Below, in pieces: positions 1,081 through 54,322 of a stretch of 54,322 bases of DNA. A program made the position numbers and the translations under genes. This DNA comes from Mucispirillum schaedleri (lineage in GTDB: Bacteria > Chrysiogenota > Deferribacteres > Deferribacterales > Mucispirillaceae). The stretch spans positions 1 to 54,322 of the forward strand of contig CASEIN010000071.1 in NCBI GenBank assembly GCA_949287985.1, given 5' to 3'. The notes beneath the pieces are model-generated. The model did no database searches. It saw only the letters and a list, made by a program, of their open reading frames with translations, and had not been told where the DNA came from. Each line of letters opens with the position of its first letter. The stretch's first letter is position 1.

Positions 1081-2832
1081 TTACCTCATTTTCTTTTTCT
1101 TCTTGCTGCCACCTGCCACATGTATAAGAGTTGGTGCGTATCCAAACAACTCACGATATTTAGCTGCTTTTTTCCCTGTTGGTGCTTTACCCGAATAGAT
1201 AACATCAAGTTCCAGTTTTTCTGCTGCTTTAATTCTTTTTAGGATATTGGTATCAACATTCTGCTTTAAGCTTTCTTTTATACTAGATACTGCTAATGTA
1301 AGGCTATCAAGCCTGTCATCATGAGCTAATGCACCTTTATCTGCTGTGATATGAGTAAGCTGATAAAAAAGCATATACCTGTGCCTGATATTTTCTGAAT
1401 ACTGCAAGGTTTTAAGAATATCTCTTTCTATAACATTTCTATCAACCACAAGCCTGTGAGTAGCAAGGACGGGCTCAAGGGTATCAATAATGCGTTTTTC
1501 TTTTTGGGTGGTGCTTCTGCTTTCAGCAATTTCAGCTTTACAGCCTGCACTAATAAGCACAGGTTCAAGCAGTTTTGAAAACATACCGTCGCCAAAGTTG
1601 CTTTCTACTACCACTTTTTGCACGTTATATTTTTTTGCTATGTTTGCAAGCTTATCAAGATTATCTTTTTCATAGCCACCAGTGAAACCGCCGCTGTCCA
1701 GCAGGAAAAGGTACCCATCACGTTCATACACAATAGAGTATGCTGTTTCATCAGTTCCTCTGCCTGATGGGTCTATAGCCATAATTCTTTGTTTATAAGG
1801 CAGGTATTTTTCTCCTACCATAGAGCCTTGATAGTAGTAATCGCCCTGCAAACCACAGGCAGCAATATTTAATTTATCTTTAGCTGCTCTGGAGTGTATA
1901 AGTTTTTCGGGTGCTTCTTGAATATCTAGGTCATACACAATAATATCTTGCAGCTTTAATGGGTATCTTTGAGCGTCAGATAATGCAGTGTCAAGCATAA
2001 ACTGTAAAGCAAACCCGGCTTTTCCGTATTCTATCTCACGAGAGAGAAGTTCCTCTGCATTAAACCTTTTGGGGTCTGTGGCTTTTCCTTGAATATCTGG
2101 GTTATTGATTACTGCATTTTTAATGCTTGGTGCAAGCTTTTCTCCATAGCTTGAAAGTTTAGTAATATCAGGGTATTTAGCCGTCCATATCCGTGTGGTG
2201 TAGCCTCTATCAGCAAGTAAATTGTAAATAGAATTTTCGCTTTGTGGTGTTCCAAGATAGATAATAGTGCCACCAACTTTTAATATGGCAGCAGCTTCTT
2301 TAATGCTTTCTGAAAGCTTTTCCCTTTGTTCGTTCGTAAGGGAATTGTTTGGTGTTTCAACATCATCAAAGATAATGTAGTCTGCACGGCTTCCTGTCAT
2401 CTGCCCTGTAATACCTACTGCCTTTACGCTTGGGCTTTTGTCTGGCTTAATGTTTGCTACATCAAAAGCGTCTGAAGCACTTCTTTGGTGAATATCTGGC
2501 TGCATACAGGTAAAGAGTTCGTTTGAGTAAAGTAATTGTTTACAGAAAGAAACAAACTCTCTAGCATATTTCATGCTGGCAGATACCACTAAAAACTTTA
2601 GCTCTGGGTTAAGCCGTAGTTTCCATAGGACAAATGCCACAGTAAGATATGATTTGCCTACGCCCCTAAAGGCTTCAATAAGTTTTTTATCTATAGTGTC
2701 ATCTGATAAGAACTTTGCAATATCCATTTGGACAGGTGTTGGTAGCGGCAGGGATAGCCCCTGCCAAATGTAAGCTACCACCTTTCTAAAATCGTGAGCC
2801 CATTCTGGAAGTTTAGGGTAATTATTTTGCAT
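1081..2832 (-). CDS. Terminase large subunit (T7 gp19 type)
   Basis: ATPase-nuclease that packages phage DNA into the prohead through the portal. At 583 residues it is almost the same length as T7 gp19 (586). The Walker A region AFRGVGKSYLT is near residue 55, the Walker B region YIIFDDVETP near 150, and the C-terminal RNase H-like nuclease shows AIDPSGRGTDET near 355 with further acidic residues in VVVESNFGDG and HDDRLD. The C-terminus ends in a Lys-rich tail (GGSKKKKKMR). Its ATG overlaps the stop region of the small terminase gene (TAATTAATG), which indicates translational coupling. The gene appears intact. Confidence 0.95.
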   Translation of the reverse strand: MQNNYPKLPEWAHDFRKVVAYIWQGLSLPLPTPVQMDIAKFLSDDTIDKKLIEAFRGVGKSYLTVAFVLWKLRLNPELKFLVVSASMKYAREFVSFCKQLLYSNELFTCMQPDIHQRSASDAFDVANIKPDKSPSVKAVGITGQMTGSRADYIIFDDVETPNNSLTNEQREKLSESIKEAAAILKVGGTIIYLGTPQSENSIYNLLADRGYTTRIWTAKYPDITKLSSYGEKLAPSIKNAVINNPDIQGKATDPKRFNAEELLSREIEYGKAGFALQFMLDTALSDAQRYPLKLQDIIVYDLDIQEAPEKLIHSRAAKDKLNIAACGLQGDYYYQGSMVGEKYLPYKQRIMAIDPSGRGTDETAYSIVYERDGYLFLLDSGGFTGGYEKDNLDKLANIAKKYNVQKVVVESNFGDGMFSKLLEPVLISAGCKAEIAESRSTTQKEKRIIDTLEPVLATHRLVVDRNVIERDILKTLQYSENIRHRYMLFYQLTHITADKGALAHDDRLDSLTLAVSSIKESLKQNVDTNILKRIKAAEKLELDVIYSGKAPTGKKAAKYRELFGYAPTLIHVAGGSKKKKKMR

Positions 2833-3714: not shown

Positions 3715-4099
3715 TTAAAAACTCCTCTTGATTTTGTTTGATAATATGTAGAATATTTTCGCACGAGTTATTGTCTTGTATGTTTTTTGTGGTATATTTA
3801 ATCATATTATCTTTTTGTATCTGGATATTTTGCAGTGCCTGCTTATGCTGCAGGCTTGCTTTTTCTTGGTTTATCTGCAAATCTTTTATTGCTTTGTTTT
3901 GTTTATCGATGGCAATATTTGCACTTGTTAAGCTGTCTTGAAGTAATACGCCCTGTAATTGCTCTTCTTTTAGGTCTATTTCAAGAGATTTAACTTTTGA
4001 TTTATAAATTACCACCGTAGTAGCAAACGCCCCAGATAAAAGCAAAATGATAACAATAAGGGCAAGTGTTACCTTGCCCGTAGATATTAGATTAAGCAC
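3680..4099 (-). CDS. Inner-membrane spanin (Rz-like)
   Basis: Type II membrane protein with one N-terminal transmembrane helix (residues 11-31, LALIVIILLLSGAFATTVVIY) followed by a long periplasmic coiled coil rich in Gln, Lys and Glu, the design of i-spanins. It is 139 residues long. The start is GTG at 4099 with GGAGG six bases upstream. Its 3' end contains the start of the outer spanin gene, and the holin gene follows. The start overlaps the end of the HExxH protein gene by eight bases. Confidence 0.8.
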   Translation of the reverse strand: MLNLISTGKVTLALIVIILLLSGAFATTVVIYKSKVKSLEIDLKEEQLQGVLLQDSLTSANIAIDKQNKAIKDLQINQEKASLQHKQALQNIQIQKDNMIKYTTKNIQDNNSCENILHIIKQNQEEFLNGRASDYFKIE

Positions 4100-12360: not shown

Positions 12361-13053
12361 TTAACGAAACCTGTATTCTGGTTGCACCAGAAAATTATAA
12401 TATTTTTCAGTATATTTCATGGCTTCCAATTCATCAGATACTATACCATCTGTTATTGCCTGCCTCAAAGCTTTTTCAATATCATGTTTCAACTCCAACG
12501 CAGCTTGACCATCTTTTATCTTTATATCAATATGAGTAAACACATATTTCGTTCCAGCTTTTACAAGACCGTTGGTTGTTTCTTCTTTTGTTTTAATGTT
12601 TTTATCAAGTGCTTCAAGTAATTTTTGATAGTCTGATGGGTGTATATCCCCATTGCGATAAGCATTAGTAATCTCATCTTTACTTTTAATACGACCTGTT
12701 ACAATGCCCTCTAAATAGTGGTTATAGCTTCTTAAGTAACTTTCTGTTTTAGGCACAGTATAACCTTTTATTCTTGATTTTTGATAATCAATTATAGCTT
12801 GCCCAAAAACATAAAAATCAAGTTTCAGCTTATCTGCAATTTCTTGTGGGGTTAAGGTTTCTAAATCTTCTCTAGTAAGCAAGCCAGCATTATATGCGTC
12901 TTTTAAAAGGTCTATCCCAGTATAATAATTTTTGTTATATTTTTTAGTATTTTCCTGTTGAGCACTTTTTTCAATAAATTCGCCATACGATATTACTTCA
13001 GCAAAAAGCAGGTTTGGTATAAACAATAAAAGTGCAATAATTATCTTTTTCAT
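12361..13053 (-). CDS. Secreted paralogue of a gp15 internal-virion domain, 230 aa
   Basis: The first 18 residues (MKKIIIALLLFIPNLLFA) form a clear type I signal peptide, so the protein should reach the periplasm. The rest aligns along its length with residues about 405-605 of the adjacent gp15: both have LTPQEIADKLKLD, FGQAI-DYQ, KGYT-PKTES-LRSYN-YLEGI-TGRI and HPSDY-LL. It therefore looks like a tandem duplication of the gp15 middle domain joined to a signal sequence. The start at 13,053 has GGAG six bases upstream, overlapping the gp15 stop region. A terminator follows. Function is unknown; see findings for a superinfection-exclusion idea. Confidence 0.8.
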   Translation of the reverse strand: MKKIIIALLLFIPNLLFAEVISYGEFIEKSAQQENTKKYNKNYYTGIDLLKDAYNAGLLTREDLETLTPQEIADKLKLDFYVFGQAIIDYQKSRIKGYTVPKTESYLRSYNHYLEGIVTGRIKSKDEITNAYRNGDIHPSDYQKLLEALDKNIKTKEETTNGLVKAGTKYVFTHIDIKIKDGQAALELKHDIEKALRQAITDGIVSDELEAMKYTEKYYNFLVQPEYRFR

Positions 13054-13054
13054 A

Positions 13055-15391
13055 TTAATCTCCAAGACCTTTAAATACAGTAGGGTTTTTTACATGTCTT
13101 TTTTGTCTGCTTAATATATCAGACGGTAAAAACCCATCGTTCAACAAACGTATATAATCTCGCCTTATCTTTTCATCTTTTGGCAACACTCTGCCATCAA
13201 CAACCTTAAACTCAAATCCAAACTCTTTTTCCAATACCTTTGGGTTTTTGTTATATATCTTCAACAGGTTTTCTTCTGTTAAAGTATCGCCTTTTAGCAT
13301 ACTTGTCAAGTGGTCGTCCCATTTTTCTTCACGGTATACTCCAGAGTTTCCTTTTGATTTAGCATAAGCCTGCCTTAACTGTTCCTCTGATACTCCTACC
13401 TCTCGCAAGATTTTTGCATTGTCAGAACCTAGAAAGTCCGCTTCTGTTACACCTGGCGTAAAATAAAGTTGTGGCTGAATAAGTTTGCCACTTTCGTCCC
13501 TTTCTGCTTTTGTCACTCCCTGCACAATACTTTCTGCTGTTTGCTCTTTTAATTGTAAATCATTAACTGCTGGTTTTGCAAGGTTACTATATGTTCCTGC
13601 ACCAATTTCAAATTGAGATATGGCTTGATAATATTTTTTTGCAAACTCTGCCGCTTCTAGTTCATCAGCTACCTTGCCATCTACTATTGCTTTCCTCAAC
13701 GCTTCTTCAATATTGCTTTTTAAGTTATTTGCCCTATCTGGTTCTGTAGAGCCTAGCTTAATATCAATATCTCCAAACACATATTTTAATCCAGCATTTA
13801 ATAAAGAGTTTGTTTTTACGCCTGCTGCCCCTGTATTATTATCAAACTCATTAAGAAGCCTTTCATAATCTGATGGGTGTATATTTCTATTGTGGTAAGC
13901 GTCAATTATTTCCTGCTTACTTTGTATTCGTCCTGTTCTTATGCCCTCCAGATAATAATTATAACTTCTTAAGTGGCTTTCTGTTTTTGGGGTTGTATAG
14001 CCTTTTACTCGTGCTTCTTGGTAATCAACAATAGCTTGCCCAAAACTGTCATAATCAAGCTTTAGTTTATCAGCTATCTCTTGTGGTGTTAACCTTTCTA
14101 AATCTTTTCTTGTAAGCTTACCAGCATTTAAAGCGTCCTTTAAAAAGTCCATGCCATCTTCATAATCCCTAAACTCTTTTACTTTTTTATTCTGCTCTAT
14201 TAATGCCTGTTGGTTTATACCAGTAGAGATGATTTCATTAGATAACTCTTTAGCCTCTGCCAGAGAAAAAAGTGCAATATCTTCATCATCTGAAATATTG
14301 TTATTATCTGTATGCCCCCAAGAGTTATAAGCTGCCTGTAATTCCTTATCACTGTTTGCTTTATTAAGTGTAACAATAAGCAAGGCTTCTGCCATATCTG
14401 CAAGCTCTGGCTCTTCCATAACTTCTGCTTTTATAGCAGCCATTAAACGCTCTTTTGTTTCCTGCGGCGTCATTCCCGCTCTTCCCGTTTCTCTCATTAA
14501 GCCCACAAGATTATTAACTATTGGGCTATCACTTAGCATAGCAATTTTAGAAATATCATCGGCTGCTGCTATATCTTGAATTAATCCATTATGCCCAACG
14601 CCAACCTTTCTGCCGCTTACTTTCTCATAAAGCACTGTAGCGTTTTTTAATTTTGACTGTAGCTCTGGGGTTAATTCTCCATAGGGCACGTCTGTTAGTG
14701 GCGTCTGCTTATCGTCTATTATAACAGCCATAAGCCCATCAGTAGTATTTCTTAATGTGTCCTTAAACTTATTTTCTGCTATTGTATCTCTTAAGGCTAG
14801 ATTTTTCTCATTTACATTTCTAATGTGCTTTTCTTGCATTAGGGCAAACAGCTCTTTATTTGGCATACTTTCATAATAATGCCTTGTATCATCATCATAA
14901 TTTTCCAAGTCTTTATCAAAGTTAAGCACATCATCTGCCAGTCTTTTGTTATATTCTTCTACTGATAGATTTGCATAGCCCTTATTAATATAGTCCTGCT
15001 CCAGTGTTGCTTTCTTTTTAGCAAGTAAGTTTTCTGCCATACCTTTAGCTAAATACTCCCTAGTCCAAAATGATGTGCCCAACGTATTAAACTTGCTGAC
15101 CTGCCTTTTTTGTTCCTTTAAATATTCTTCCACATTTTTATCGCCTGTTCTCATCATATTTAAAAGGTCTTTATTAGCTTGTGCTTTAGCTTTTGATTTT
15201 TGCTTTTCTATAAATTCATCTGCTAATCTGTCCCCTTGAGCACTAATGCCTTTTAAACTTTCAGCAAGGCGTATCCATTCGTTACCCTGCCCGTATACTT
15301 CATCAGGGTTAACAAAAGCTTTTGCACTCATTAGTTTGGCAGCAGGGGCTATGCTTAAGCTGCTCCTAGCGAAATCTGATTTCATTTTCAT
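13055..15391 (-). CDS. Internal virion protein gp15-like (DNA ejectosome)
   Basis: Second core protein of the virion, expected to be ejected and to form the periplasmic tube of the DNA-translocation channel. It has 778 residues (T7 gp15: 747), mainly helical, and lies between gp14 and gp16 as in T7. Residues about 405-605 are duplicated in the secreted protein encoded next to it. The start is the first of two close ATGs (15,391), with AAGGAGG upstream and a hairpin leader just before that. Sequence similarity to T7 gp15 is too low to see by eye; the call comes from order, length and composition. Confidence 0.8.
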   Translation of the reverse strand: MKMKSDFARSSLSIAPAAKLMSAKAFVNPDEVYGQGNEWIRLAESLKGISAQGDRLADEFIEKQKSKAKAQANKDLLNMMRTGDKNVEEYLKEQKRQVSKFNTLGTSFWTREYLAKGMAENLLAKKKATLEQDYINKGYANLSVEEYNKRLADDVLNFDKDLENYDDDTRHYYESMPNKELFALMQEKHIRNVNEKNLALRDTIAENKFKDTLRNTTDGLMAVIIDDKQTPLTDVPYGELTPELQSKLKNATVLYEKVSGRKVGVGHNGLIQDIAAADDISKIAMLSDSPIVNNLVGLMRETGRAGMTPQETKERLMAAIKAEVMEEPELADMAEALLIVTLNKANSDKELQAAYNSWGHTDNNNISDDEDIALFSLAEAKELSNEIISTGINQQALIEQNKKVKEFRDYEDGMDFLKDALNAGKLTRKDLERLTPQEIADKLKLDYDSFGQAIVDYQEARVKGYTTPKTESHLRSYNYYLEGIRTGRIQSKQEIIDAYHNRNIHPSDYERLLNEFDNNTGAAGVKTNSLLNAGLKYVFGDIDIKLGSTEPDRANNLKSNIEEALRKAIVDGKVADELEAAEFAKKYYQAISQFEIGAGTYSNLAKPAVNDLQLKEQTAESIVQGVTKAERDESGKLIQPQLYFTPGVTEADFLGSDNAKILREVGVSEEQLRQAYAKSKGNSGVYREEKWDDHLTSMLKGDTLTEENLLKIYNKNPKVLEKEFGFEFKVVDGRVLPKDEKIRRDYIRLLNDGFLPSDILSRQKRHVKNPTVFKGLGD

Positions 15392-19803: not shown

Positions 19804-20745
19804 TTATTGTTTTAAAAGTTCTACCGCTCTGCGTGCTTCTAAAATGCCAGCACCCATTAAGCGCTTGACAACAAGCAGCACTGCTTGGTTTTCAACCTTA
19901 TAATCTCCTGCTGCCATTTCAGTAGTTAATGCTTTTAAATAAACATTACCAACAGCACCTTTAGAAACACACACTCCTACAGTATTTGTAAAGTCCCCGT
20001 GATAAGTGTTGTTTGCCCCTGTTTCTTGCGTAATGTTTTCGTTTGGCACATGCATTGTTTCTATAATATCAAAGCCTGCCACACGAAAAACTTTACCATC
20101 AGCATATACACCAGAGCCACCCCAGTTTTTATTGATAATATCTGTTGTCATTGCAAGCAGCGAGTATATAGCAGGGCGGCAGAAAAATGCTCTTGGGTCT
20201 GTTTCTGGCACATGTTTTTCTGCCATAATTTCCCTTGCTCCAAAAATAAGCTCTGCCATAGCCTGCCCGTCAGTATCCACATTGGCACCAGTTAACTGTG
20301 AGCCACCCGCCATATCGTCCTGCGGTGCAGCTGTTCTGCCAGCAAGGCAGGCAAGCTGTAAGTTTATTTGGTCTTGCTTTACAGCCATTGCAGCACCAAG
20401 CTGTTTTGAATATTCTGAACGAACTTCATAATGGCTCATAGCTTCATCAATATCTAATATCTTAACACTTGCTGCTAAAACATCATCAATATTAATTGTA
20501 ATAGCAGAATGAAGCATATTGTTGTTGCCCTCAATCTTATTGCCTCTTGGCACGTATTCTGCTTTTGCTGTGCCATAAACTTGGAAAGTGGCAGACTTAC
20601 CGTAATCAATAGTGCGCTCCCTAATAAATGGGGCAGATACATTTGTTTCATCAAATGCTTTAATTGCGTCTGTTGAAATGTTTGTAATAAAAAGGGCTTT
20701 CTCGTCCCCTTGTCCGTTAATTTGTCCTACGTTAGTATGTGCTAT
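19804..20745 (-). CDS. Major capsid protein (T7 gp10 type), apparent AUA start
   Basis: Shell protein of the icosahedral head, 313 residues when read from the AUA (T7 gp10A: 345). It aligns with T7 gp10 at DEKALFITNIST...AIKAF, GKSATFQVYGTAKAEYVPRG and DIDEAMSHYEVRSEYSKQLG. The frame has no ATG, GTG or TTG between the upstream stop and a GTG 64 codons into the conserved region (20,553). The only sensible start is ATA at 20,745, preceded by AAAGAGG six bases upstream and followed by AHTNVGQINGQGD, a plausible capsid N-terminus. Either AUA is used or an ATG has mutated. Scaffold and a 41-residue membrane protein gene precede it. Confidence 0.9.
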   Translation of the reverse strand: MAHTNVGQINGQGDEKALFITNISTDAIKAFDETNVSAPFIRERTIDYGKSATFQVYGTAKAEYVPRGNKIEGNNNMLHSAITINIDDVLAASVKILDIDEAMSHYEVRSEYSKQLGAAMAVKQDQINLQLACLAGRTAAPQDDMAGGSQLTGANVDTDGQAMAELIFGAREIMAEKHVPETDPRAFFCRPAIYSLLAMTTDIINKNWGGSGVYADGKVFRVAGFDIIETMHVPNENITQETGANNTYHGDFTNTVGVCVSKGAVGNVYLKALTTEMAAGDYKVENQAVLLVVKRLMGAGILEARRAVELLKQ

Positions 20746-20756
20746 AACCCACCTCT

Positions 20757-20882
20757 TTAGTTATTTGTTTTTTTAAAAAAATTATCTTTTAGGCTGGCAC
20801 CCCAGTCTTTTATCTTATTTTTGTTTTTATAGATTAAAAATGATAACCCTAAAAAGATAAGAATGAATAAAATAATTTTCAT
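20757..20882 (-). CDS. Small membrane protein, 41 aa
   Basis: ATG at 20,882 has GGAG eight bases upstream. The product begins with one strongly hydrophobic helix (MKIILFILIFLGLSFLIY) and then a basic, polar tail (KNKNKIKDWGASLKDNFFKK). It fills the gap between scaffold and capsid genes and its stop is eleven bases before the capsid AUA. I do not recognise a family; a small membrane effector or a structural accessory are both possible. Confidence 0.6.
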   Translation of the reverse strand: MKIILFILIFLGLSFLIYKNKNKIKDWGASLKDNFFKKTNN

Positions 20883-21909: not shown

Positions 21910-23511
21910 CTATTGTTGTTCTGCTACCTGCTGTAATGCTGGCATATTGCTTATGGCAGCTGGTATTGCAGATTTTGCTATATCCACTTGCTGCTGCTGC
22001 ATTTGCATTTGTGCCTGCTGTTCCTGTTCTGCCTGTAACTCTTCATCAGTTTTGATAAGCCCATCTATTGATATATTCATAATGGAAGCAAGTTTCTTAA
22101 TCAGGTTTAATGGTTTTGCATAAGTTTGTAATGCTCCACCACTAAATTCTCTTAAATATCCTGCAAATTCAAGCAACTCTTCTTTTTGAGAGTTTGTTCC
22201 CAATGCTTCAAAGCCAGCAATAATAACTGGCTTAATAGCACTATCCAGCTTTGGTAACAGTTTCATCTTTGCAAGCTTATATATTTTTCTCTTTAAATAT
22301 GGCACTTGAAAAGAGTAAGAACAGGCAGAATAAAGCCCGCCTAATGACTGCTCTATTTCCTTTGCTACTTCCCGCACTTCTTCCCTTGTTACCCTTTCAG
22401 CGTCCCTTATCATTCCGCCTGTTATTAAAAAAGCACGGTTAAGCCTTTCTTCTATTTTACTTACTTCTTCTGTTACCGTCCTTAAATCGTAACCTTTTTG
22501 AGCCTGCAGGAAAGATACATCACCTGCCCTGCCATCTATTACTTCACCATTTTCTGCTTCTTCAATATCATCTTTATCTGTTATTCCTGTTGGGTCTACA
22601 AGCAAAATGTTTCTAGAAATCATAGCGGCAGCCTCAACGCTTGCCTGGCTTAATCCATCTAAACTTTTCAAATCCCCAAGATAATTTGATACATAGCTTC
22701 TTGAATAGTCCTCTCCTGCACCATTAAAAAGCCTTAAAGCAATAAAAGGACAGCCTGTAATGCTTACTTCCTGCTTTGTGCTCTCAAGTATTACACCCTG
22801 CACTTCTTGGTGGATATAGTATTTATCCCCACACCTTTTGCAGTATGAATAAAGCTCTACTTCTTTTTCGTTTGTTTTATCTGACGGCTTGTTATTATAA
22901 TTATCTGATGGCAGTATGCTATTGTTAACGACAGCCCTTATTTCATCAGTCCAAGCATTTTCTGATATTATTTCCTTTAATATTATCTCCACAGGATTTC
23001 CTGCCCTGTCCCTTGATACAACGTAATCTCGTAATGAATATATCCTAATATTACCGTTATCATCAGGGTCTCTGATTAATACGTTACCAGAGATTAAAAG
23101 TAGCTGCCACATCTCATATAAAAAAGAAGTATCGTTACTTGCTTTAATAACATCTAATGTTTGGTTGGCGTAATCTGTTAGGATAGTTTCTAACACTATT
23201 CTAAAATCTTCGCTTTCTTCCTGCCTTGTTTCAAGAAGCTTATAATCATCTACTATGAATTTAAAAAATGGCGTGTTGCTTGGTGTTAATGCTGTAAGCA
23301 GTTTGCTTGCAAGGTTTGATACTCCTGCTGCACCTAAGGACTGATAAGGGTGTGATAACTCCCTATTATACACCTCTTCAAAATAAGAGCGCATAATAGG
23401 AAGTGTATATTTGCAGCAGTCTATGGCTAGGTTTATGTAGAAAGATTTATCTTTTTCTAACACATCAAACCTTTCTTTACCTACTGCTTTATACTCATAC
23501 TTTTGGGACAT
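21910..23511 (-). CDS. Portal / head-tail connector (T7 gp8 type)
   Basis: Dodecameric portal through which DNA is packaged and ejected. It has 533 residues (T7 gp8: 536), with family-like stretches YQSLGAAGVSNLASKLLTAL, TPSNTPFFK and GDVSFLQAQKGYDLRTVTEEVSKIE (shown in part). The C-terminus is Gln/Met-rich (QEQQAQMQMQQQQ). It overlaps the gp7.3-like gene by 17 bases. The order gp7.3-portal-scaffold-capsid matches T7. Confidence 0.93.
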   Translation of the reverse strand: MSQKYEYKAVGKERFDVLEKDKSFYINLAIDCCKYTLPIMRSYFEEVYNRELSHPYQSLGAAGVSNLASKLLTALTPSNTPFFKFIVDDYKLLETRQEESEDFRIVLETILTDYANQTLDVIKASNDTSFLYEMWQLLLISGNVLIRDPDDNGNIRIYSLRDYVVSRDRAGNPVEIILKEIISENAWTDEIRAVVNNSILPSDNYNNKPSDKTNEKEVELYSYCKRCGDKYYIHQEVQGVILESTKQEVSITGCPFIALRLFNGAGEDYSRSYVSNYLGDLKSLDGLSQASVEAAAMISRNILLVDPTGITDKDDIEEAENGEVIDGRAGDVSFLQAQKGYDLRTVTEEVSKIEERLNRAFLITGGMIRDAERVTREEVREVAKEIEQSLGGLYSACSYSFQVPYLKRKIYKLAKMKLLPKLDSAIKPVIIAGFEALGTNSQKEELLEFAGYLREFSGGALQTYAKPLNLIKKLASIMNISIDGLIKTDEELQAEQEQQAQMQMQQQQVDIAKSAIPAAISNMPALQQVAEQQ

Positions 23512-24177: not shown

Positions 24178-24951
24178 TTATACTTCATTTTCAATACTCC
24201 ACAGTATTGGTTTCTTTCTTTCGTAATCATAGTCATAGTTTCTTAATATCCTAGCCATACGTGCATTAAGTAATGCAACTTGTTCCGAACTGCCTTTTTT
24301 AATATAGGCTTCCACTACAGCCTGCCACATTTGCCTATAGCTCATATCCTTGCTTATTATCTTTTCTGCTGTCTTTAATCCACAGCCAGCGAGCCCTTTG
24401 TAGTTATCTGTCTGGTCGCCTGTAAGTGTTTGCAGCATATGGTTGTAATTTGCTTCCTGCTCTGAAACAATTATACTTTCATCGTTTCTATTGTTATGGT
24501 ATTTGCAGGGCAGGGTTTTCATATCCTTATCAAGTGATACTATTATTTTGTTTGTGTTCTTTATAATTACCTTGCTTGTTGCAAGTATGCCCAAAATGTC
24601 ATCGCCCTCTAAATACTCCCTGCAAAATATATTGTATTCCTGCTCCACCCACTGTCTTAAAGGTTTATAAACCATTGGCGGCTTTTTATCTTTTCTGTTC
24701 GCCTTATAATTTGGGTTTATTTCTTTTCTAAAGTTTTTGTAATGAGACAAAGCTATGGTATACTCTTTTGTTTCAAACTTATTAAGAAGCTCACTTATTG
24801 TGTTTATAAATAGAACTTTAGCTTCACTTAATGAGGCATAGTTAACATAGTTATCATCGTCCCAGTTTATAACCTTTTCGCAGGTTGCTGCTGCTCTATA
24901 AATATAAACATCGCCATCAATTAATAAATGTGGCGCAGCTACATTTCCCAC
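24178..24951 (-). CDS. 5'-3' exonuclease (T7 gp6 type, FEN family)
   Basis: Flap/5' exonuclease used for primer removal and host DNA breakdown. It has 257 residues (T7 gp6: 303). Conserved acidic sites are visible: LLIDGDVYIYRA near residue 10, EYLEGDDILGILA near 115, IVSLDKDMKTLPC near 138, and the H3TH-like LTGDQTDNYKGLAGCGLKTAEKII near 190 (shown in parts). GTG at 24,951 has GGGAG six bases upstream. It follows the two small genes that stand where a DNA polymerase gene would be expected. Confidence 0.9.
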   Translation of the reverse strand: MGNVAAPHLLIDGDVYIYRAAATCEKVINWDDDNYVNYASLSEAKVLFINTISELLNKFETKEYTIALSHYKNFRKEINPNYKANRKDKKPPMVYKPLRQWVEQEYNIFCREYLEGDDILGILATSKVIIKNTNKIIVSLDKDMKTLPCKYHNNRNDESIIVSEQEANYNHMLQTLTGDQTDNYKGLAGCGLKTAEKIISKDMSYRQMWQAVVEAYIKKGSSEQVALLNARMARILRNYDYDYERKKPILWSIENEV

Positions 24952-24997
24952 ACTAAACTCCCAATTAGTAACTCCAGTAGTCTATCAAAAATATGTT

Positions 24998-25324
24998 TCA
25001 CGAAACACCTCCTTTAATACTATGATAAAAGTTTGAAAAGCCAACATAAGCTTTTGAACGTGGAGATAATGACATACCCTGCCATGAACCATCATCACTT
25101 GTGGATATACCTTTGCTTCTTGTATCCATATCTACAGGTTTATTTTTTTCATACCTAATAAGAATACAAAACATTCCCTTCATATCTATAACTTCTATTT
25201 CTCTTGGGTTATCATCATTTATCTTTACAAGTATCTTCCCCTGCTTGCTCTTATCAATAACAGCAGATATGTTATAGCAATGTTTTTTTATGTCTGCTAA
25301 TATACTGGCTCTATCTTTATACAT
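24998..25324 (-). CDS. Hypothetical protein at the gp5 position, 108 aa
   Basis: I do not recognise a family. A beta-rich middle (ILVKINDDNPREIEVIDMKGMFCILIRY) and a Ser/Gly-rich C-terminus are visible. Its ATG overlaps the TAA of the 60-residue gene, showing coupling, and GAGGA lies upstream. It lies between helicase and exonuclease, where T7 has its DNA polymerase gene; it shares no polymerase motif. Confidence 0.6.
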   Translation of the reverse strand: MYKDRASILADIKKHCYNISAVIDKSKQGKILVKINDDNPREIEVIDMKGMFCILIRYEKNKPVDMDTRSKGISTSDDGSWQGMSLSPRSKAYVGFSNFYHSIKGGVS

Positions 25325-25506
25325 TATTCCTCATGCTTTCCAAGCTGCCACTTAAACATAACTTCGGCATTTTCCTGCTGCCAACCAGAATATTTACTTT
25401 TAACTTCAAGCCTAGTAGGGTAAAGCCTATAATTTGTATCCCCTACTAAAAACTCCTGCCCAGCCTCCACGCCAATTGCTTTTAAGATTATTTCATATAT
25501 TGTAAT
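25324..25506 (-). CDS. Hypothetical 60-aa protein, probable AUU start
   Basis: After the in-frame TAA at the helicase end, the frame runs ...ATT ACA ATA TAT GAA... to a TAA at 25,324 with good codon use: IGVEAGQEFLVGDTNYRLYP, then SKYSGWQQENAEVMFKWQLG. There is no ATG or TTG at the start; AAGGGGG lies seven bases before ATT at 25,506, and the first GTG would remove 15 codons. The stop overlaps the next gene's ATG. I do not know the family. The clean coupling makes it likely to be a real gene. Confidence 0.6.
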   Translation of the reverse strand: MTIYEIILKAIGVEAGQEFLVGDTNYRLYPTRLEVKSKYSGWQQENAEVMFKWQLGKHEE

Positions 25507-25522
25507 TTTATTGCCCCCTTAC

Positions 25523-27214
25523 CTAGAATGGCACATTGTCTTTTTCTTTATTGTTGTCCACATTGAAGTCTGGTATATCATTTGGGTTTTCCCCATTGTA
25601 TGCAAGCAGCCTGCCTGTCTGTCTTGAATATATTAAATGGTCGCTTTCCCCACAGACACCAGTTGGTCTGTTCTTTAATATCCGTATACGTGATACATTC
25701 TTATTTATCCCCTCTGCCTGCTGGTCTCTTTCTAGTGCCACCACCACATCTGAAAGCTGCTCTAAAGCACCACTGCCTCGTAAATCTGTCAATGATACCT
25801 GCCTGCCCTCATTCCAACTTTTTCCCTTGTCCGATGGTCTTTTTAAATGCACCACCGCCAAAATGGTTACACCTGTTTCTTCACACAAGCTTCTTAAGTT
25901 TGTCATAAACATATCTATGGTTTTTCTTTCATCAGTGCCCTGCTCTTTTTCATCAAGACCAGAAATAACTATGCTTATATGGTCAAGCACTAAAACTTTG
26001 CAGCCAAGTGATTTAACCATACTTCTTATTTTTGGCATAAGCACTTCTGTTGCCTGTGAGCCAAAATGATTATAGACGTAAAAGTTATCTTTTATGGCTG
26101 TGTTGTAAGCCTGCTCATATTCTTCATCTGTAAAGGATATTTCTGCACTTAACATATTTTTATTCATTGCCATGCTTAAGTGCCTCTGTGCCGTTGTTCT
26201 TGCATTCTCCTCAAGGCAGATTAACCCAACAGGCAGCTTATGCTGGACATGCATATGGTATGCTATCTCATGCACAACCGTGCTTTTGCCTATTCCGCTT
26301 CCTGCTGTAAAAAGCCAAAGCTCACCCTGCCTAATCCCCTCTGTTTTATTTTCTAAATCTGGGTAACATAATGGCAGCCCCCTTTTTCTTGGCTTCCTGC
26401 ATTCATTATACAAGCTTTCTCCTGTTAGGATATAGTCTGGCGAATATGGTTTAGCTTCCCATATTGCCCTTAAGATTTCCTGAACCTTGCCTTTTACTAA
26501 GCATTCGTTTATGTCCTTTTCTGGAAAGTGTGCTATTCTCACTTTGTGGGGGCTTACGATTTCAGCACATTCATAAGCTGCTTTCCTGCCTGCTTCATCC
26601 ATATCAAATGCGAATATTACTGTTTCGTAACTTTCTATCCATTCAAGGTGACGAGCAATATCGTTTTTTGCTCCACCTGCACCGTTCTTCACGGATACTA
26701 TGGCACAAGGGTATTTCTTTTCCCAAGCTTCATAAAGAGAAAGAGCGTCTATTTCACCCTCACATATAACAAGGCGCTTCCCTCCGCCCCCATAAAGATG
26801 TGCTCCAAACATTAACGCCTGCTTGTTATCCCCTTTAATGAGAAAAGACTTATCAGCAAAGCGTAACTTTTGAGCACACACCTGCCCTTTTTCGTTTCTA
26901 TATTCTGCTACTTGACAAGCTTTACCGTTATACTGTGATATCCCATAGCCGTACTGTTTGCAGGTGGCAGCACTAATCTTTCTTGTTTTTATTTCCTTAT
27001 GTTCAAGAGAGCTTATAAGCTCATCTTTTTTACTTATCTTTACTTCTGATATATTAGTCTCCTTATATCTGTATTCTTTTGTTGGTTGCTCTGTATACCC
27101 ACAGGCAAAACAATATGTTGAGCCATCTTCATAGACTGCCATATTGTTGCCCTTACGGTCTCCACCGCTTTGCCTGCACTTAGGGCAGGCTGTGTGATAA
27201 AGATATTTACTCAT
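25523..27214 (-). CDS. Primase-helicase (T7 gp4 type)
   Basis: Bifunctional replication protein. Residues 9-38 hold the primase zinc finger (CPKC...CFAC), a TOPRIM domain follows (VICEGEIDALS near 150; FAFDMDEAGRKA near 200), then the DnaB-like helicase with Walker A GSGIGKST near 308 and VLVLDHISIVISG near 420. Length 563 is the same as T7 gp4 (566). The C-terminus (NKEKDNVPF) is acidic/polar and ends in Phe; in T7 the acidic, Phe-ended tail of gp4 binds the gp5 polymerase, which is missing here. It begins inside the end of the antirepressor gene (8-base overlap) without an obvious ribosome site. Confidence 0.95.
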   Translation of the reverse strand: MSKYLYHTACPKCRQSGGDRKGNNMAVYEDGSTYCFACGYTEQPTKEYRYKETNISEVKISKKDELISSLEHKEIKTRKISAATCKQYGYGISQYNGKACQVAEYRNEKGQVCAQKLRFADKSFLIKGDNKQALMFGAHLYGGGGKRLVICEGEIDALSLYEAWEKKYPCAIVSVKNGAGGAKNDIARHLEWIESYETVIFAFDMDEAGRKAAYECAEIVSPHKVRIAHFPEKDINECLVKGKVQEILRAIWEAKPYSPDYILTGESLYNECRKPRKRGLPLCYPDLENKTEGIRQGELWLFTAGSGIGKSTVVHEIAYHMHVQHKLPVGLICLEENARTTAQRHLSMAMNKNMLSAEISFTDEEYEQAYNTAIKDNFYVYNHFGSQATEVLMPKIRSMVKSLGCKVLVLDHISIVISGLDEKEQGTDERKTIDMFMTNLRSLCEETGVTILAVVHLKRPSDKGKSWNEGRQVSLTDLRGSGALEQLSDVVVALERDQQAEGINKNVSRIRILKNRPTGVCGESDHLIYSRQTGRLLAYNGENPNDIPDFNVDNNKEKDNVPF

Positions 27215-27944
27215 AGGCAGAGAATTTATTTAAGAAATATTGCTGACCTTTACCTGTAACTAATGTGCTTTTAGTGACAAGCTGATAAGTGCTGTAATCA
27301 ACAACACTTTCTACCACTTTAAATAAACCCTGTTTCATATACTGTTGTGTAGGTAAGTTCTTATCTCTGCCGCTTTTGATTAAGTAACCCTTATCTCTTA
27401 AATAATCATAGAGTTTATTTCTGCCTATGTTTACACCATTATTTTGCAGGTATCTTGATAACTCTGTAATGCTTATGCAGTGTTTGCTGTTTGTTACCGC
27501 TTCAGCAAATGCTACCTTTGGCTTATCCTGTTCTATCTTTTCATTAAGAGCGTTTATCTGCTTCGCCTGCTCCAGTGCTAACTCTAATGCCTCAACCATA
27601 TTAGTAGGTGCTTTAATTTGTTTTCTTAATTCTTTTTCACAGGCTATAAAATACTTCCTTACTTGATTACCTTTCTCGTTTCTTTCAAGCATTGCTATAT
27701 TTTTTGCAAGGTCTAATGACAAGGCGTATTCTCTTGCTTTTGTTGCACCTGTTTCTCGTTTGATAATTTTATCAAATGAGATATAGTCTTCATTCTCTAC
27801 TGCGTAAGCCTGTTCTAATCTAGCCTTAACCCAATGTGTAAATTCCTGCTTGCTTTCCAGTGCCTGCCATAAATCCCTTGCAGTTACGCTATTTACTTTA
27901 TCATTATTAATTATCTGCTCTTCTATTTTTATTAGTTTTTTCAT
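27207..27944 (-). CDS. AntA-type / KilAC phage antirepressor
   Basis: Residues 1-110 match the AntA/AntB family (VNSVTARDLWQALESKQEFTHWVKAR, shown in part, then LSLDLAKNIAMLERNEKGNQVRKYFI). A linker nearly identical to that of the other antirepressor (MVEALELALEQAKQI) joins a KilAC domain (SITELSRYLQNNGVNIGRNKLYDYLRDKGYLIK). It lies between amidase and primase-helicase, where T7 has no such gene, just after a terminator, so it looks like an added gene. The two antirepressors share a C-terminus but not an N-terminus, a case of domain swapping inside one genome. CCTTATG-like and AAGGAG sites precede the ATG. Confidence 0.85.
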   Translation of the reverse strand: MKKLIKIEEQIINNDKVNSVTARDLWQALESKQEFTHWVKARLEQAYAVENEDYISFDKIIKRETGATKAREYALSLDLAKNIAMLERNEKGNQVRKYFIACEKELRKQIKAPTNMVEALELALEQAKQINALNEKIEQDKPKVAFAEAVTNSKHCISITELSRYLQNNGVNIGRNKLYDYLRDKGYLIKSGRDKNLPTQQYMKQGLFKVVESVVDYSTYQLVTKSTLVTGKGQQYFLNKFSAYE

Positions 27945-28001: not shown

Positions 28002-28409
28002 TTAGATAAAATTATTTTCTTTAGCCCACTGCTTCACATCAAAATTAGGGCAAGTCTTATTAGGCTCATAATCACAATGCCCTACAATATTTGCATTTGG
28101 GTATTTAGATTTTAACTCTAACAGTAAACCTCTTAAAGTTTCCCACTGTTTATCTGTGTAATCATTTACTGGCTTATTCTTTGTGCCGTCCTTAATGCCG
28201 CCTACAAGGCATATCCCTATGCTGTCTTTATTGTGCCCTTTGCAGTGTGCCCCTGCCTCTTCCAAACTTCTACCATTTTCAAGGCGTCCATCTCGCCTTA
28301 TCACATAATGGTAGCCTATACCATTCCAACCACGCTCCCTGTGCCAGCGGTCTATTTCCTGCCTGCCTATATCCATTTTAGACGGTGTCGCAGAACAATG
28401 AATAATAAT
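28002..28409 (-). CDS. N-acetylmuramoyl-L-alanine amidase (T7 gp3.5 lysozyme type), no AUG in frame
   Basis: Zinc amidase that cuts peptidoglycan and, in T7, also inhibits the phage RNA polymerase. The alignment with T7 lysozyme runs from IIHCSAT (zinc His) through IDRWHRERGWNGIGYHYVI, AHCKGHNKDSIGICLVGG to GHCDYEPNKTCPNFD. An ATG at 28,376 would lose the essential IIHCSAT segment. Upstream, the frame offers only ATT codons (28,409, 28,406, 28,403; also 28,418) after AAGAGG at 28,425-28,420. A well-spaced ATG at 28,414 is in another frame and stops after 15 codons, so a one-base deletion in a former ATG start is the alternative. I use 28,409 as the start. Confidence 0.85.
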   Translation of the reverse strand: MIIHCSATPSKMDIGRQEIDRWHRERGWNGIGYHYVIRRDGRLENGRSLEEAGAHCKGHNKDSIGICLVGGIKDGTKNKPVNDYTDKQWETLRGLLLELKSKYPNANIVGHCDYEPNKTCPNFDVKQWAKENNFI

Positions 28410-28433: not shown

Positions 28434-28544
28434 CTCCTCATAAAAAATGGGCAAAGCCCTGTTTTTTATTCCTCGTTTATTTTTATTTTTCATTCTACCC
28501 CAGCGGGATTTTCCTTTTCCTCCCTACTCGGTCGGGAAAATCCC
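28434..28544 (-). repeat. Diverged hairpin repeat next to endonuclease I
   Basis: The part 28,434-28,496 matches 23,720-23,778: a GAGGA...GAGGAGTGA pair flanking an A-rich hairpin with GGGC-TTT-GCCC at its tip, then the same T-rich stretch ending CATTCT. The outer stem pairs differ in a compensatory way (GCAAAAA/TTTTTGC there, ATAAAAAA/TTTTTTAT here). Instead of the ANGGAC hairpin, a different one follows: GGGATTTTCC (28,505-28,514) / GGAAAATCCC (28,535-28,544). The last codons of endonuclease I lie within this repeat. Confidence 0.6.
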
Positions 28545-29018
28545 ACCTCGCAAAATACGCTCGCCTCCTGTTACCATAATAAAAGCTTGTTTACTTGCCC
28601 CGCTTGGTGTTTCCTTTAACCATTCAGCAGGTATTGACGAGCTTGCATACTTAAAGCCGTGCTTTTCCGCCCACGCCCCATAAGTTATCTTTGAACCTTT
28701 ATGTATTTTTGTGTTAGCATTTTGAAAGACTAATCTAATATCTAAATCTGGATATGCTTTTTTAACAGCAACCATTTTGCTTCTATCTTCCAAATCAAAA
28801 AGCCCTTTGGCTTCCACTATAATACATGGCTCATAAAGAATAAAGTCTGGCACATATTTATGGGTTTTTGTATATTCAAGCTTTATGCTCTCATAGCCAA
28901 AGTTGCTGCCCTTAAGCTCATTCATCAGCCTTGTTTCAAATGCACTTTTGCCAGCACCACTATTCTTTTGTGCCGCCACTCTCATTTCTGTTTTTGTTCT
29001 TTTAGAAATCGCCTTCAC
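28524..29018 (-). CDS. Endonuclease I, Holliday junction resolvase (T7 gp3 type)
   Basis: Junction-resolving nuclease for recombination and host DNA breakdown. The catalytic set is visible: Glu in SAFETRLMNEL, Asp in YVPDFIL, and the Glu/Lys of IVEAKGLFDLEDRSK, then DIRLVFQNANTKIHKGSKITYG and IPAEWLKE as in T7. It is 164 residues (T7: 149). The start is uncertain: GTG at 29,018 overlaps the SSB stop, while ATG at 28,985 would match the T7 length. The last 20 residues (about GERILRGGIFPTE) come from a repeat element and probably replaced the native end. Confidence 0.92.
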   Translation of the reverse strand: MKAISKRTKTEMRVAAQKNSGAGKSAFETRLMNELKGSNFGYESIKLEYTKTHKYVPDFILYEPCIIVEAKGLFDLEDRSKMVAVKKAYPDLDIRLVFQNANTKIHKGSKITYGAWAEKHGFKYASSSIPAEWLKETPSGASKQAFIMVTGGERILRGGIFPTE

Positions 29019-29679
29019 CTTTTACACTTTTTTCTCCAGCAGGAATTGCTGCACTTGCAAAGTCTTCATCATCACTTTCATCATAAGCAGCAAAACCATA
29101 GCTTTCTGCGTCCCTAGTATATTCCACTGCTTTAATTATTTGAACTGCCTGCAAGTCTATACTTAATCCTGCCTTTGCTCCTGCTGGCATAAAGTATGGC
29201 TTCACTTTAAAAGCTGCTCTCATAGTTGAGCCACTGCTAGCCTTTTTAATATCTTCCTGCGTCATTGGTTTATTTGCTTTGTCAAATACTGGCACTTTAA
29301 ATTCAAGCACTCTGCCACCACCTAATTCCAGTTTGGCAAACTTATCAAAATGAATAAACACTCTGCCTGTTGAAGTGCCATCATCAAGCACCTCCTCTTT
29401 GTAGAACTGTTGTGGGCTAAATGGGTTATTAGCCTTGCTTTGTGCATTCATCTTCTCATACTTTTCTTTTGCCCATTTGATAGCTTCCTCATAAGCTTCT
29501 TGCAGCATAGCCAAAAGTTTTGCTCCTGCTTCGCTGTCAAAATAAAGGCGCACTTCATACTTGCCATGCTTTACAAATTTAGTGTTAGGCTCTGCTAAAT
29601 GCGGAAATTTTGCAATACCCTCTGGCGTTAAATAATTTTTCTTAAAACATTCTTTTAATTCTTCTTTTTCTTTTGCCAT
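29002..29679 (-). CDS. Single-stranded DNA-binding protein (T7 gp2.5 type)
   Basis: OB-fold SSB needed for replication and recombination. It is 225 residues (T7 gp2.5: 232), with YEVRLYFD, FDKFAKLELGGGRVLEFKVPVFD and RAAFKVKPYFMP as strands of the fold. The C-terminus turns acidic (YDESDDEDF) and the protein ends GEGDF; in T7 the acidic tail with terminal Phe contacts the gp5 polymerase and gp4. The ATG has GGAG upstream. The gene overlaps endonuclease I at its end. Confidence 0.9.
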   Translation of the reverse strand: MAKEKEELKECFKKNYLTPEGIAKFPHLAEPNTKFVKHGKYEVRLYFDSEAGAKLLAMLQEAYEEAIKWAKEKYEKMNAQSKANNPFSPQQFYKEEVLDDGTSTGRVFIHFDKFAKLELGGGRVLEFKVPVFDKANKPMTQEDIKKASSGSTMRAAFKVKPYFMPAGAKAGLSIDLQAVQIIKAVEYTRDAESYGFAAYDESDDEDFASAAIPAGEKSVKGEGDF

Positions 29680-31165: not shown

Positions 31166-33736
31166 TCAAGCAAAAAAATACTCGCTTTCAAGTAAATCTG
31201 TTAAGTCAAGGCTGCCATAAGCCACCGCCTGTGGCAGTTTCATTTTATTTCGCTTGCTCTCTGGCACAATTTCCAGAACTTCGTTAGTCCACTTTTGCAA
31301 CACATCAGTTGAAAACATTTCCACGAACGCTTCTCTTAATATGCTTGCAAGCTTTGTGCTGTCAGCTGCGTGGGTGCCGTAACTATCGTGTATCATCGCA
31401 AAATGCGAGACACCCTGCTTGCTTGCTTTATCCACCGTTTTCATCATAGCAGCAGCATCTAGTGAGTGGATAAAGTTAGGGGCTATCCCCATTCTTTGCT
31501 TTTTACTGGAAATTTTAGGAAGCTCATCGTTAACAAATACTTTCAATGTGCCGCCTAGTTTCGTATCAATTCTTATGCTTTTCTCTTCCTTGTAAGCTTG
31601 CATTACCTTGAAGCCTACTGGGCTAGTCCAGTATATTGGCAGGCTGTCTTTTGCTATTATGGAAGCTATGTTTTGCAAATATCCCATACCCTCATAAGCT
31701 TTAATAACAGTTTCCCCCACAGCCTGCCAGATAGTTTCAGCTAAAAATAAAGCAGGGTAAAATAAGCTTTTATTATCAGGGTATATTTCATTTATCACGT
31801 TATCTTTATGCTTTGCTGCTGCCTCACGAAGCCACTCATAAGTATACTGCTTGCAGCTTTCAAAAGTGGCAGCATACGGCACTGTCATTACCTGCCTTTT
31901 GGTGCAGCTCCTGTCTATTCCTAAATCAATTAATGCTGGTGCTATTATTTTTTCATCATAAAGCAAGGCACCAGTTGACGAAAACCTTTTCTGCCCTGAT
32001 TGTATTTTAAGTTTTAACTTATCAACAACTTTGCCTGCCACAACACCGTATATATCTGATGGCATTTTTGATGGTATAAGGTTAGTTGCTCTGCCGCCCT
32101 CTTCATCCCTTAAAAGCAGGCTGTAGATTTGCAAGCCGTTACAGGTGCCATCCATTGCTATAGGCAGTCTTGAATAAAAACACACCCCACGCTCGCAGGC
32201 TGCTTTATATTCTGCCCACTCAAAACAAAAGGCTAAAAACTGGAAAGGTTTATCAGCCTTATGCCAAAAGGTATTTTTTATTGGGTCATCAGCTACTGCT
32301 CTTATAACATCATCGTTGCTTATCACCCACGAAAACCTCTCATCAAGGCTTAGTTTATCTTCCCCATAGACATTCGCCCCGTGGATAGCCAGCCAACGAA
32401 AAGCTCCCCATTCTATCATTGGTTTAGCTTCAGCAAATTCTAATAACCCCTTGCCCCAGTCCTGCGACTGCGGGTTTAAAAATGATGGCACTGCATATAC
32501 CCTGCCCCTGAAATCAAGCTGGTGGGGAAAGTATATTTCTTCTTCATTTAAAAACTCTTTTGCTACGCTGATTATCCTTGCTACAGTCAGCCTTTTAGAA
32601 CGGCGGGCAATGTTATCTTTATGGGTTTGCGTTACTTTCTTTTTCCAAGACTTAAAAGCTTCTTTGTTTTCTTCTATACTGAAACATTTATGGTCGCCTG
32701 TTTCTTCAACTACGCCATTACATACAGGGCATACTGGAAGCGGCATATCTTCATCAGTAATGTAGTTGCCTTTCTTATCTGGGATTATGCTTTGTTTTTT
32801 CCATAAGTGCTCCATCACATCAAACACTCTTTTATTTATCCGCCAAGATGTATTTTGTATGGCATTCACCGCATTATACACCGTCTGCATTTCTTCTGTG
32901 CGGTTGTTTAGTTCTTCAAGGTAGGCTTTCGGCGAAAACCTTGCCTTTACAAGCCAAAGCTCTTTGGTTTTTGCATAGTAGCCACCGTCAAAAACATCGC
33001 TCCACTGTTTCGGTGGAATAATGGTTGGTAAATATTCAGGTGTTGCTCCTGCAAAATCTTCTGTGCGTTTGATGAACTCAAGGCACTTTTCAGTAGGCAC
33101 TACATAGTTTGTTACAGTGCCTTTTAAATTGCTTTCCCCACTTATTTCAATAAAGCCTGTTGTTTCCATAAAAATCTCTATGAGCTTTACACCTAACTGC
33201 ACTTTGTCCTGTTTGCTCCACGCTTCCACACCAATACCTGCACGCTTCATAGCTATGTTTAAGGCGTTTGCTTTGTGCTGTTCGTGGTTTGTCTTCACGA
33301 TACTATGCATAAGATTAAATAAGTCTGGGTTTAGCCTTTCAAATTCAGAAAGCTTATGCTCTTCATAAATTGCACCTGCAAGTTTTAATGCAAGGCTTGA
33401 AAGGCTAGCTTTGGAACTTAAACTATTAACGATAGTTCTTAATGTAATGAAAGCAGTTACACGGGTATCATCTATTAATTTAAGATACTTTAAAGCTGTA
33501 TGGCGTCTGCCAGCTTTGCCGCTTTCTGCTTCAGTCATAAACCTATCAATAGATGATGATACAGCATTAAGCTGCGTCCGCATAAGGCTTTGTCCATAAA
33601 GTGTAATACTTTCGTTTTTGTTTGATTTTGCTTTGGCATAAATACGCTCAACCTTACGCCTACCACGCAAAGACATTTCCAACTCAAGATTAAGTTGCCT
33701 TTGAAATTTTTCATCTGTTACTACTTTTTTCTGCAT
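31166..33736 (-). CDS. Single-subunit phage RNA polymerase (T7 gp1 type)
   Basis: DNA-dependent RNA polymerase that would transcribe the later phage genes from phage-specific promoters. The start at 33,736 has AAAGGAG eight bases upstream; the frame extends 29 codons further but without a site. Catalytic residues are present: Asp in AMDGTCNGLQ near 528, Lys and Tyr in CTKRQVMTVPYA near 612, Asp in IHDSYGTHAAD near 781; the end LESEYFFA matches the T7 FAFA foot. Length 856 (T7: 883). Unlike T7, residues about 335-365 contain CPVCNG...HKC, a possible small metal-binding insert. A host-type promoter and a palindrome lie upstream. Confidence 0.96.
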   Translation of the reverse strand: MQKKVVTDEKFQRQLNLELEMSLRGRRKVERIYAKAKSNKNESITLYGQSLMRTQLNAVSSSIDRFMTEAESGKAGRRHTALKYLKLIDDTRVTAFITLRTIVNSLSSKASLSSLALKLAGAIYEEHKLSEFERLNPDLFNLMHSIVKTNHEQHKANALNIAMKRAGIGVEAWSKQDKVQLGVKLIEIFMETTGFIEISGESNLKGTVTNYVVPTEKCLEFIKRTEDFAGATPEYLPTIIPPKQWSDVFDGGYYAKTKELWLVKARFSPKAYLEELNNRTEEMQTVYNAVNAIQNTSWRINKRVFDVMEHLWKKQSIIPDKKGNYITDEDMPLPVCPVCNGVVEETGDHKCFSIEENKEAFKSWKKKVTQTHKDNIARRSKRLTVARIISVAKEFLNEEEIYFPHQLDFRGRVYAVPSFLNPQSQDWGKGLLEFAEAKPMIEWGAFRWLAIHGANVYGEDKLSLDERFSWVISNDDVIRAVADDPIKNTFWHKADKPFQFLAFCFEWAEYKAACERGVCFYSRLPIAMDGTCNGLQIYSLLLRDEEGGRATNLIPSKMPSDIYGVVAGKVVDKLKLKIQSGQKRFSSTGALLYDEKIIAPALIDLGIDRSCTKRQVMTVPYAATFESCKQYTYEWLREAAAKHKDNVINEIYPDNKSLFYPALFLAETIWQAVGETVIKAYEGMGYLQNIASIIAKDSLPIYWTSPVGFKVMQAYKEEKSIRIDTKLGGTLKVFVNDELPKISSKKQRMGIAPNFIHSLDAAAMMKTVDKASKQGVSHFAMIHDSYGTHAADSTKLASILREAFVEMFSTDVLQKWTNEVLEIVPESKRNKMKLPQAVAYGSLDLTDLLESEYFFA

Positions 33737-33808
33737 TTCGTCTGCTCCTTTCGGAAGCAAACACAAATGAGAAGAAATCAAATAAACAACCAAAACACTT
33801 AAAACAAT

Positions 33809-33826
33809 CTGCAACCGCTGCAACCG
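33809..33826 (+). repeat. Tandem 9-mer CTGCAACCG
   Basis: Two exact, adjacent copies of CTGCAACCG lie upstream of the RNA polymerase gene, with an inverted third copy at 30,892-30,900 on the other side of that gene. They could be binding sites for a phage regulator or replication protein. Confidence 0.45.
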
Positions 33827-33944: not shown

Positions 33945-34035
33945 TTTTTGGCTAAAAAATATTATTTTATTTAAAGAGAGTTAATAACCACTTTTTTATT
34001 TAATACTTTTTTCGCAATCGTTTTTAGAATTTACC
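33945..34035 (-). mobile_element. Solo end of an IS30-like element (remnant)
   Basis: These 91 bases are the inverted copy of 54,120-54,210 with about three mismatches apart from the ragged inner edge (T/C and A/C differences near 33,985 and 34,003, and one near 33,950). Homology stops sharply at 34,035/54,120, which marks the outer IS end. The inner side, where the transposase start should be, is missing and phage sequence begins instead. It is thus a truncated IS end lying exactly at the phage-chromosome junction. Confidence 0.75.
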
Positions 34036-54119: not shown

Positions 54120-54210
54120 GGTAAATTCTAAAAACGATTGCGAAAAAAGTAGTAAATAAAAAAGTGGTTGTTAACTCTCTTTAAATAAAATAATATTTTT
54201 TAGCTAAAAA
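54120..54210 (+). mobile_element. Left end of an IS30-like element
   Basis: From 54,120 on the sequence matches the reverse complement of 33,945-34,035, and the match ends sharply at 54,120, so this is the outer boundary of the insertion sequence. The transposase gene begins 27 bases past the matched part. The element runs beyond the window. Confidence 0.75.
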
Positions 54211-54236
54211 AATAAATAAGGAGAGAACAACCACTA

Positions 54237-54322
54237 ATGGATATTACACTAAAACCGAGAAAAAATAAACACTTAACTTCATCAGAGTGCTATCAATTAG
54301 AAGTTTTATTGAAGAGCAATAT
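54237..54322 (+). CDS. IS30-like transposase, N-terminal fragment (cut by window end)
   Basis: ATG at 54,237 with AAGGAGAG upstream. The 28 visible residues (beginning MDITLKPRKNKHLTSSECYQ and then LEVLLKSN) match the N-terminal HTH start of IS30-family transposases, where KHLT..ER..IE.LL is common. The DDE catalytic part is outside the window, so the family is a good guess only. Confidence 0.65.
   Translation, partial: MDITLKPRKNKHLTSSECYQLEVLLKSN

Follow-up and report, generated by a model that had tools for sequence, protein, structure and literature searches.

T7-like prophages of Mucispirillum lack a DNA polymerase gene and keep an acidic, aromatic helicase tail

Phage T7 is the textbook example of a self-sufficient replisome. 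A T7-like prophage of Mucispirillum was found here to have no gene for the T7-type DNA polymerase (gp5) at the junction between the helicase and exonuclease genes, which holds no more than two small genes, of 60 and 108 aa. A temperate T7-like phage of this host has probably lost gp5 and would rely on a host polymerase for genome replication, with the replicase Pol III as the most likely candidate; we infer both the viability of the phage and the synthesis by the host enzyme. At least three lineages have dropped the T7-type polymerase, and two of those have also dropped the gp5-binding tail of the helicase. The Mucispirillum phages are the sole exception in which this tail is kept, and they represent a temperate gut phage, not a marine lytic one.

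The window, namely the whole stretch of 54,322 nucleotides analysed, is one contig (C71) from a 97%-complete Mucispirillum genome (G000). The T7-like prophage occupies positions 1 to ~33,950 on the minus strand, with host genes beyond. Its genes are arranged in the order RNA polymerase (RNAP), SSB, endonuclease I, amidase, antirepressor, primase-helicase, 60-aa ORF, 108-aa ORF, exonuclease, portal, scaffold, capsid, tail and internal virion proteins, and terminase. A related prophage is present in a second Mucispirillum species (G005, CALUZC010000004.1, 'uncultured Mucispirillum sp.'), and the dN/dS values below refer to this pair.

31166..33823, minus strand: T7-type single-subunit RNA polymerase (PF00940, E 3.6e-102; phrog_414; dN/dS 0.06)
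29002..29679, minus strand: gp2.5-like SSB with the C-terminus GEGDF (PF21265; phrog_112; dN/dS 0.09)
28524..29018, minus strand: endonuclease I, gp3-like (PF05367, E 2.5e-38)
28002..28376, minus strand: amidase, gp3.5-like (PF01510)
25523..27214, minus strand: primase-helicase, gp4-like (phrog_239, E 2.6e-179; dN/dS 0.11)
25324..25512, minus strand: ORF of about 60 aa, no family assigned, conserved in G005
24998..25324, minus strand: 108-aa ORF occupying the place of gp5, no family
24178..24951, minus strand: 5'-3' exonuclease, gp6-like (phrog_107, E 8.9e-60; dN/dS 0.09)
21910..23511, minus strand: portal, gp8-like, the first large gene of the structural block (phrog_449, E 1.1e-132)
1081..2832, minus strand: terminase large subunit, gp19-like (phrog_38, E 1.3e-114)

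The true start of the RNAP is probably ~20 codons inside its ORF. In the primase-helicase, the zinc, TOPRIM and Walker A residues were all intact in the alignment. The element has the single-subunit T7-type RNAP (PF00940) by which T7-like phages (Autographiviridae) are recognized, together with the collinear order of RNAP, SSB, endonuclease I, helicase, exonuclease, portal, capsid, tail and terminase. The other usual trait, an A-family DNA polymerase of its own between helicase and exonuclease, is absent; this gene is usual but not universal among T7-like phages (PMC9860041).

The original prediction, that SSB, endonuclease I, primase-helicase and exonuclease stand in T7 order with only the two small genes in the place of gp5, agreed with our annotation, and so did its statement that no polymerase motif occurs elsewhere in the phage part. 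DNA_pol_A (PF00476) was detected once in G000, in the 796-aa host Pol I, and host Pol I was likewise the sole match in G005 and in the closed genome G006. As none of the three genomes has a second A-family polymerase, a helper phage that supplies gp5 is very improbable. A gp5 HMM run with all filters off on the six frames of both prophages and of a further contig, C32, gave noise alone (E 2.6 or worse), and tblastn with the gp5 of phage ProddE and of Desulfovibrio found no genuine gp5 (best E 0.26). The search for a B-family polymerase matched nothing anywhere, and its control was equally silent, which leaves some room for a polymerase of another type. No remnant or scar of gp5 was found; a check for a scar near 25,300 had been proposed. 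In our survey of T7-like loci, gp5 was nearly always located between helicase and exonuclease, and its absence here is therefore not a matter of chance. An assembly artefact is ruled out, because the second assembly, from the other species, shows this junction too.

The 60-aa gene is without an ATG and probably starts at ATT; in G005, this ATT stands behind a Shine-Dalgarno-like AAGGAGG. Both small genes occupy precisely the gp5 position, and each is conserved in the two species; the phage might encode an unrecognised polymerase or a polymerase adaptor, one of these two proteins for example. This is improbable, since neither protein matched a family in Pfam or PHROG, no homologue was found outside the two Mucispirillum phages, and both are far below the size of any known DNA polymerase, although one of them may be an adaptor. 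The structure model of the 108-aa protein was unreliable (pLDDT 46) and too poor for a structure search.

The two prophages are ~90% identical in DNA over nearly the whole element and are inserted at different sites; shared sequence at different sites argues for a phage that moves. The G005 prophage is complete, with integrase, MarR-like gene and repressor on the left, RNAP to terminase, and host genes on both sides. The comparison with the closest relative that had been proposed for the junction gave an end-to-end alignment with that of the window, again with no gp5. Contig C32 (4,040 bp) of G000 matches the left part of the G005 prophage (repressor, MarR-like gene and 330-aa integrase) and completes the window element save for ~0.3 kb. 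Its synteny, together with a 13-bp repeat shared by the edges, suggests that it is part of the window prophage.

33945..33957, no strand: putative attachment core TTTTTGGCTAAAA at the right prophage edge, with the same 13 bases beside the integrase in C32 (~3900-3912)

This core could be a chance match, because it is short and AT-rich. No polymerase is encoded on C32, so that the A-family polymerase sought to the left of the window was not there; together with the complete G005 prophage, this rules out a gp5 in the missing left part. The suggestion that the polymerase is encoded elsewhere also found no support, as no gp5 was found in the rest of either genome. The prophages differ by an AntA/KilAC antirepressor (27207-27944), extra in the window and missing in G005, and by a C5 cytosine methylase (L044:3991-5067), extra in G005 and missing in the window. 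In IMG/VR, no closer relative exceeded 46% identity by helicase or 42% by RNAP.

The dN/dS between the two prophages was 0.03-0.19 for terminase (0.03), portal (0.04), RNAP, exonuclease, SSB, helicase and endonuclease I. By these values, the replication genes are under purifying selection, and the element looks maintained. Synonymous divergence was strongly variable along the element, and the gp5-less junction lies in a tract of high identity.

~24943..25985, minus strand: high-identity tract over the junction, mostly 95-100% identical to G005, with flanks at ~88-90%

Judged by this identity, the tract is a recent exchange between phages of the two species. Because the junction lies within it, the shared absence of gp5 is no proof of an old loss, and the deep divergence of the genes on either side gives no date for the absence; the Mucispirillum sample consists of two sequences with recently exchanged junctions. 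The loss could accordingly be young, the helicase tail, kept though its partner is gone, being a relic in an element that is on its way out and no longer replicates by itself. We consider this rather unlikely, in view of the strong purifying selection on replication and structural genes, the two insertion sites, the lack of a gp5 scar or remnant and the long branch that separates the pair from its nearest relative with gp5.

The survey of T7-like helicase loci gave three gp5-less groups, namely the MPP-C type, the Krakvirus type and Mucispirillum. T7-like phages without gp5 have already been published as the MPP-C cyanophages (Cai et al. 2022, PMC9860041), cultured cyanopodoviruses that are viable and lytic although they have no polymerase gene; as candidates, the authors name Pol I or Pol III of the host, or else a polymerase that has escaped recognition (PMC9860041). 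MPP-C phages (P-SCSP1, P-SCSP2) share with the Mucispirillum phages the lack of a DNA polymerase gene and the possession of a T7-like RNAP, endonuclease I, helicase and exonuclease, the last of which follows the helicase directly in MPP-C. They differ in being marine, isolated as free phages, and without an integrase in the genome part examined. In addition, 0 of 67 MPP-C-type helicases has an acidic Phe tail, whereas the Mucispirillum phages keep an aromatic acidic tail; the helicase without such a tail is an MPP-C feature seen here, not a published criterion.

The Krakvirus type is a third gp5-less group, found here, and our literature search found no paper that remarks on the lack of gp5 in Krakvirus. 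Krakvirus S39C11 (AP013549) and its relatives (L124, L310-L343, L345; including a Planctomycetia prophage) are T7-like with no gp5 in whole ~42-kb records, and AP013549 also has an integrase and a MarR-like gene, but helicase and SSB are both without an aromatic tail, and the group is distant in both trees. For the MPP-C and Krakvirus groups, 14 IMG/VR records (38-60 kb) and two from GenBank were free of PF00476. Loci L132 and L133 were rejected as gp5-less, because a 689-aa ORF directly behind the helicase was taken, by inspection, as a divergent polymerase.

By helicase and RNAP, the nearest relatives of the Mucispirillum phages are Desulfovibrio phage ProddE (MZ666938) and a locus of Desulfovibrio sp. 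MES5 (L056), which share integrase, repressor and gene order but carry gp5 between helicase and exonuclease; in ProddE, an intron interrupts that gene. Coliphage T7 has the same set of RNAP, SSB, endonuclease, helicase and exonuclease, and the Mucispirillum phage differs from it by the absence of gp5 and the presence of lysogeny genes. In the RNAP tree, the Mucispirillum pair was sister to the gp5-bearing ProddE and L056 (98% SH-aLRT); the helicase tree likewise placed it beside ProddE, and the gp5 label switched three times there. The AU test rejected a single gp5-less clade with helicase (p 0.005) and RNAP (p 0.0018). A clade of Mucispirillum and MPP-C was rejected by RNAP (p 0.0004) and not by helicase (p 0.099), and shared ancestry with MPP-C is thus ruled out by RNAP, not by helicase alone. 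The Mucispirillum pair and AP013549 were far apart, on starred branches in both trees, and did not form one clade. Because the trees place the Mucispirillum phages beside ProddE, their loss of gp5 looks independent of the two other gp5-less lineages. Unlike the published MPP-C phages, the Mucispirillum line kept the helicase tail. Gp5-less relatives with different tails had been named in advance as counter-evidence; two other lineages with different helicase tails do exist, but, by the trees, the losses were separate events.

The tails were as originally described, with the SSB ending in GEGDF and the helicase in KEKDNVPF. The helicase of G005 ends in KEKEDVPF, and the host SSB in RDEDVPF in both species.

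25526..25567, minus strand: helicase C-terminal tail FNVDNNKEKDNVPF; the G005 counterpart is FNVDNNKEKEDVPF, and the host SSB ends in RDEDVPF

The C-terminal tail of the T7 helicase contacts gp5 (PMC8835902). Among helicases with gp5 nearby, 135 of 156 end in F, Y or W, whereas without gp5 an aromatic end was seen in 2 of 95, both from Mucispirillum, and in 0 of the 93 others; these rows are not independent, with few losses behind them. In a second survey, by RNAP, the helicase end was aromatic in 54 of 55 loci with gp5. The median net charge of the last 20 helicase residues was -4 with gp5 and -1 without it, and -3 and -4 in the Mucispirillum phages. Aromatic SSB ends were present in 135 of 142 phages with gp5, in none of 26 of the Krakvirus type, and in all 75 gp5-less phages of the MPP-C type, so that the SSB tail is uninformative on gp5 and was discarded as a sign of gp5 contact. 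The proposal that both Phe-ended tails are gp5 contacts therefore held for the helicase, whose tail is lost in every other gp5-less lineage found, but not for the SSB. By these counts, the helicase tail is the only one of the two that is informative on gp5, as expected from T7. The correlated loss of gp5 and helicase tail supports the role of the tail in T7, and makes the question of the host polymerase testable.

The kept tail may be left over from a fairly recent loss, or may now contact a host protein, and we hold these alternatives side by side. Re-use of the tail, an extension of our preferred explanation, is possible but tentative: an SSB-like tip, EDVPF, would fill the pockets for the host SSB tip and bring host replication proteins to the phage fork. 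It is attractive because many DNA-processing proteins dock on the tip of bacterial SSB (PMC10143822). In both species, the host SSB ends in DEDVPF, and the phage helicases end in DNVPF and EDVPF; within the tail, the P and F codons show synonymous changes, with V-P-F and the acidity preserved; and all 93 other gp5-less helicases have lost the aromatic end. However, a PF end also occurs in 26 of the 156 helicases with gp5, and [IV]PF in about half a dozen of them, so that the tip may predate the loss of gp5 or be unrelated to it, and only two sequences are available.

Classically, it is through the chi subunit that Pol III binds the SSB tip. Host chi (PF04364) was not found in the genus Mucispirillum, which also speaks against re-use; docking of Pol III via chi seems closed for this reason, and this route of recruitment was set aside. 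A bolder version is doubtful, in which after the loss of gp5 the helicase tail became a copy of the host SSB tip, and a T7-type helicase drives a chi-less host replication machine.

Recruitment of a host polymerase, as originally suggested, is the likeliest substitute for gp5, with a precedent in cultured T7-like phages that are viable although they lack a polymerase gene (PMC9860041). The phage would enter lysogeny through its integrase and repressor, and its genes would be transcribed by its own RNAP. On induction, its helicase-primase and SSB would open and prime the phage DNA, a host polymerase, most likely Pol III, would extend it, and the exonuclease and endonuclease would process it; of these components, the gene content is observed, and the polymerase step is deduced. 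No 3'-5' exonuclease domain was shown in host Pol I, which weakly favours Pol III over Pol I.

Minor observations were made elsewhere in the window. At its right contig end, 125 bp (54195-54319) are 87% identical to L215:3897-4021, the flank beside the C32 integrase, and are perhaps a dispersed repeat. A 234-aa ORF (12361-13065) is a partial paralogue (~56%) of the middle of its gp15-like neighbour (13055-15391), as seen via the G005 copy. The capsid gene (19804-20760, minus strand) has no ATG, GTG or TTG before ~residue 65, and its reading matches the ProddE capsid from residue 7 onward. In both Mucispirillum species, it is preceded by AAAGAGGTGG(G/A)TT-ATA-GCA, and because this sequence is kept in both, the gene likely starts at the conserved ATA.
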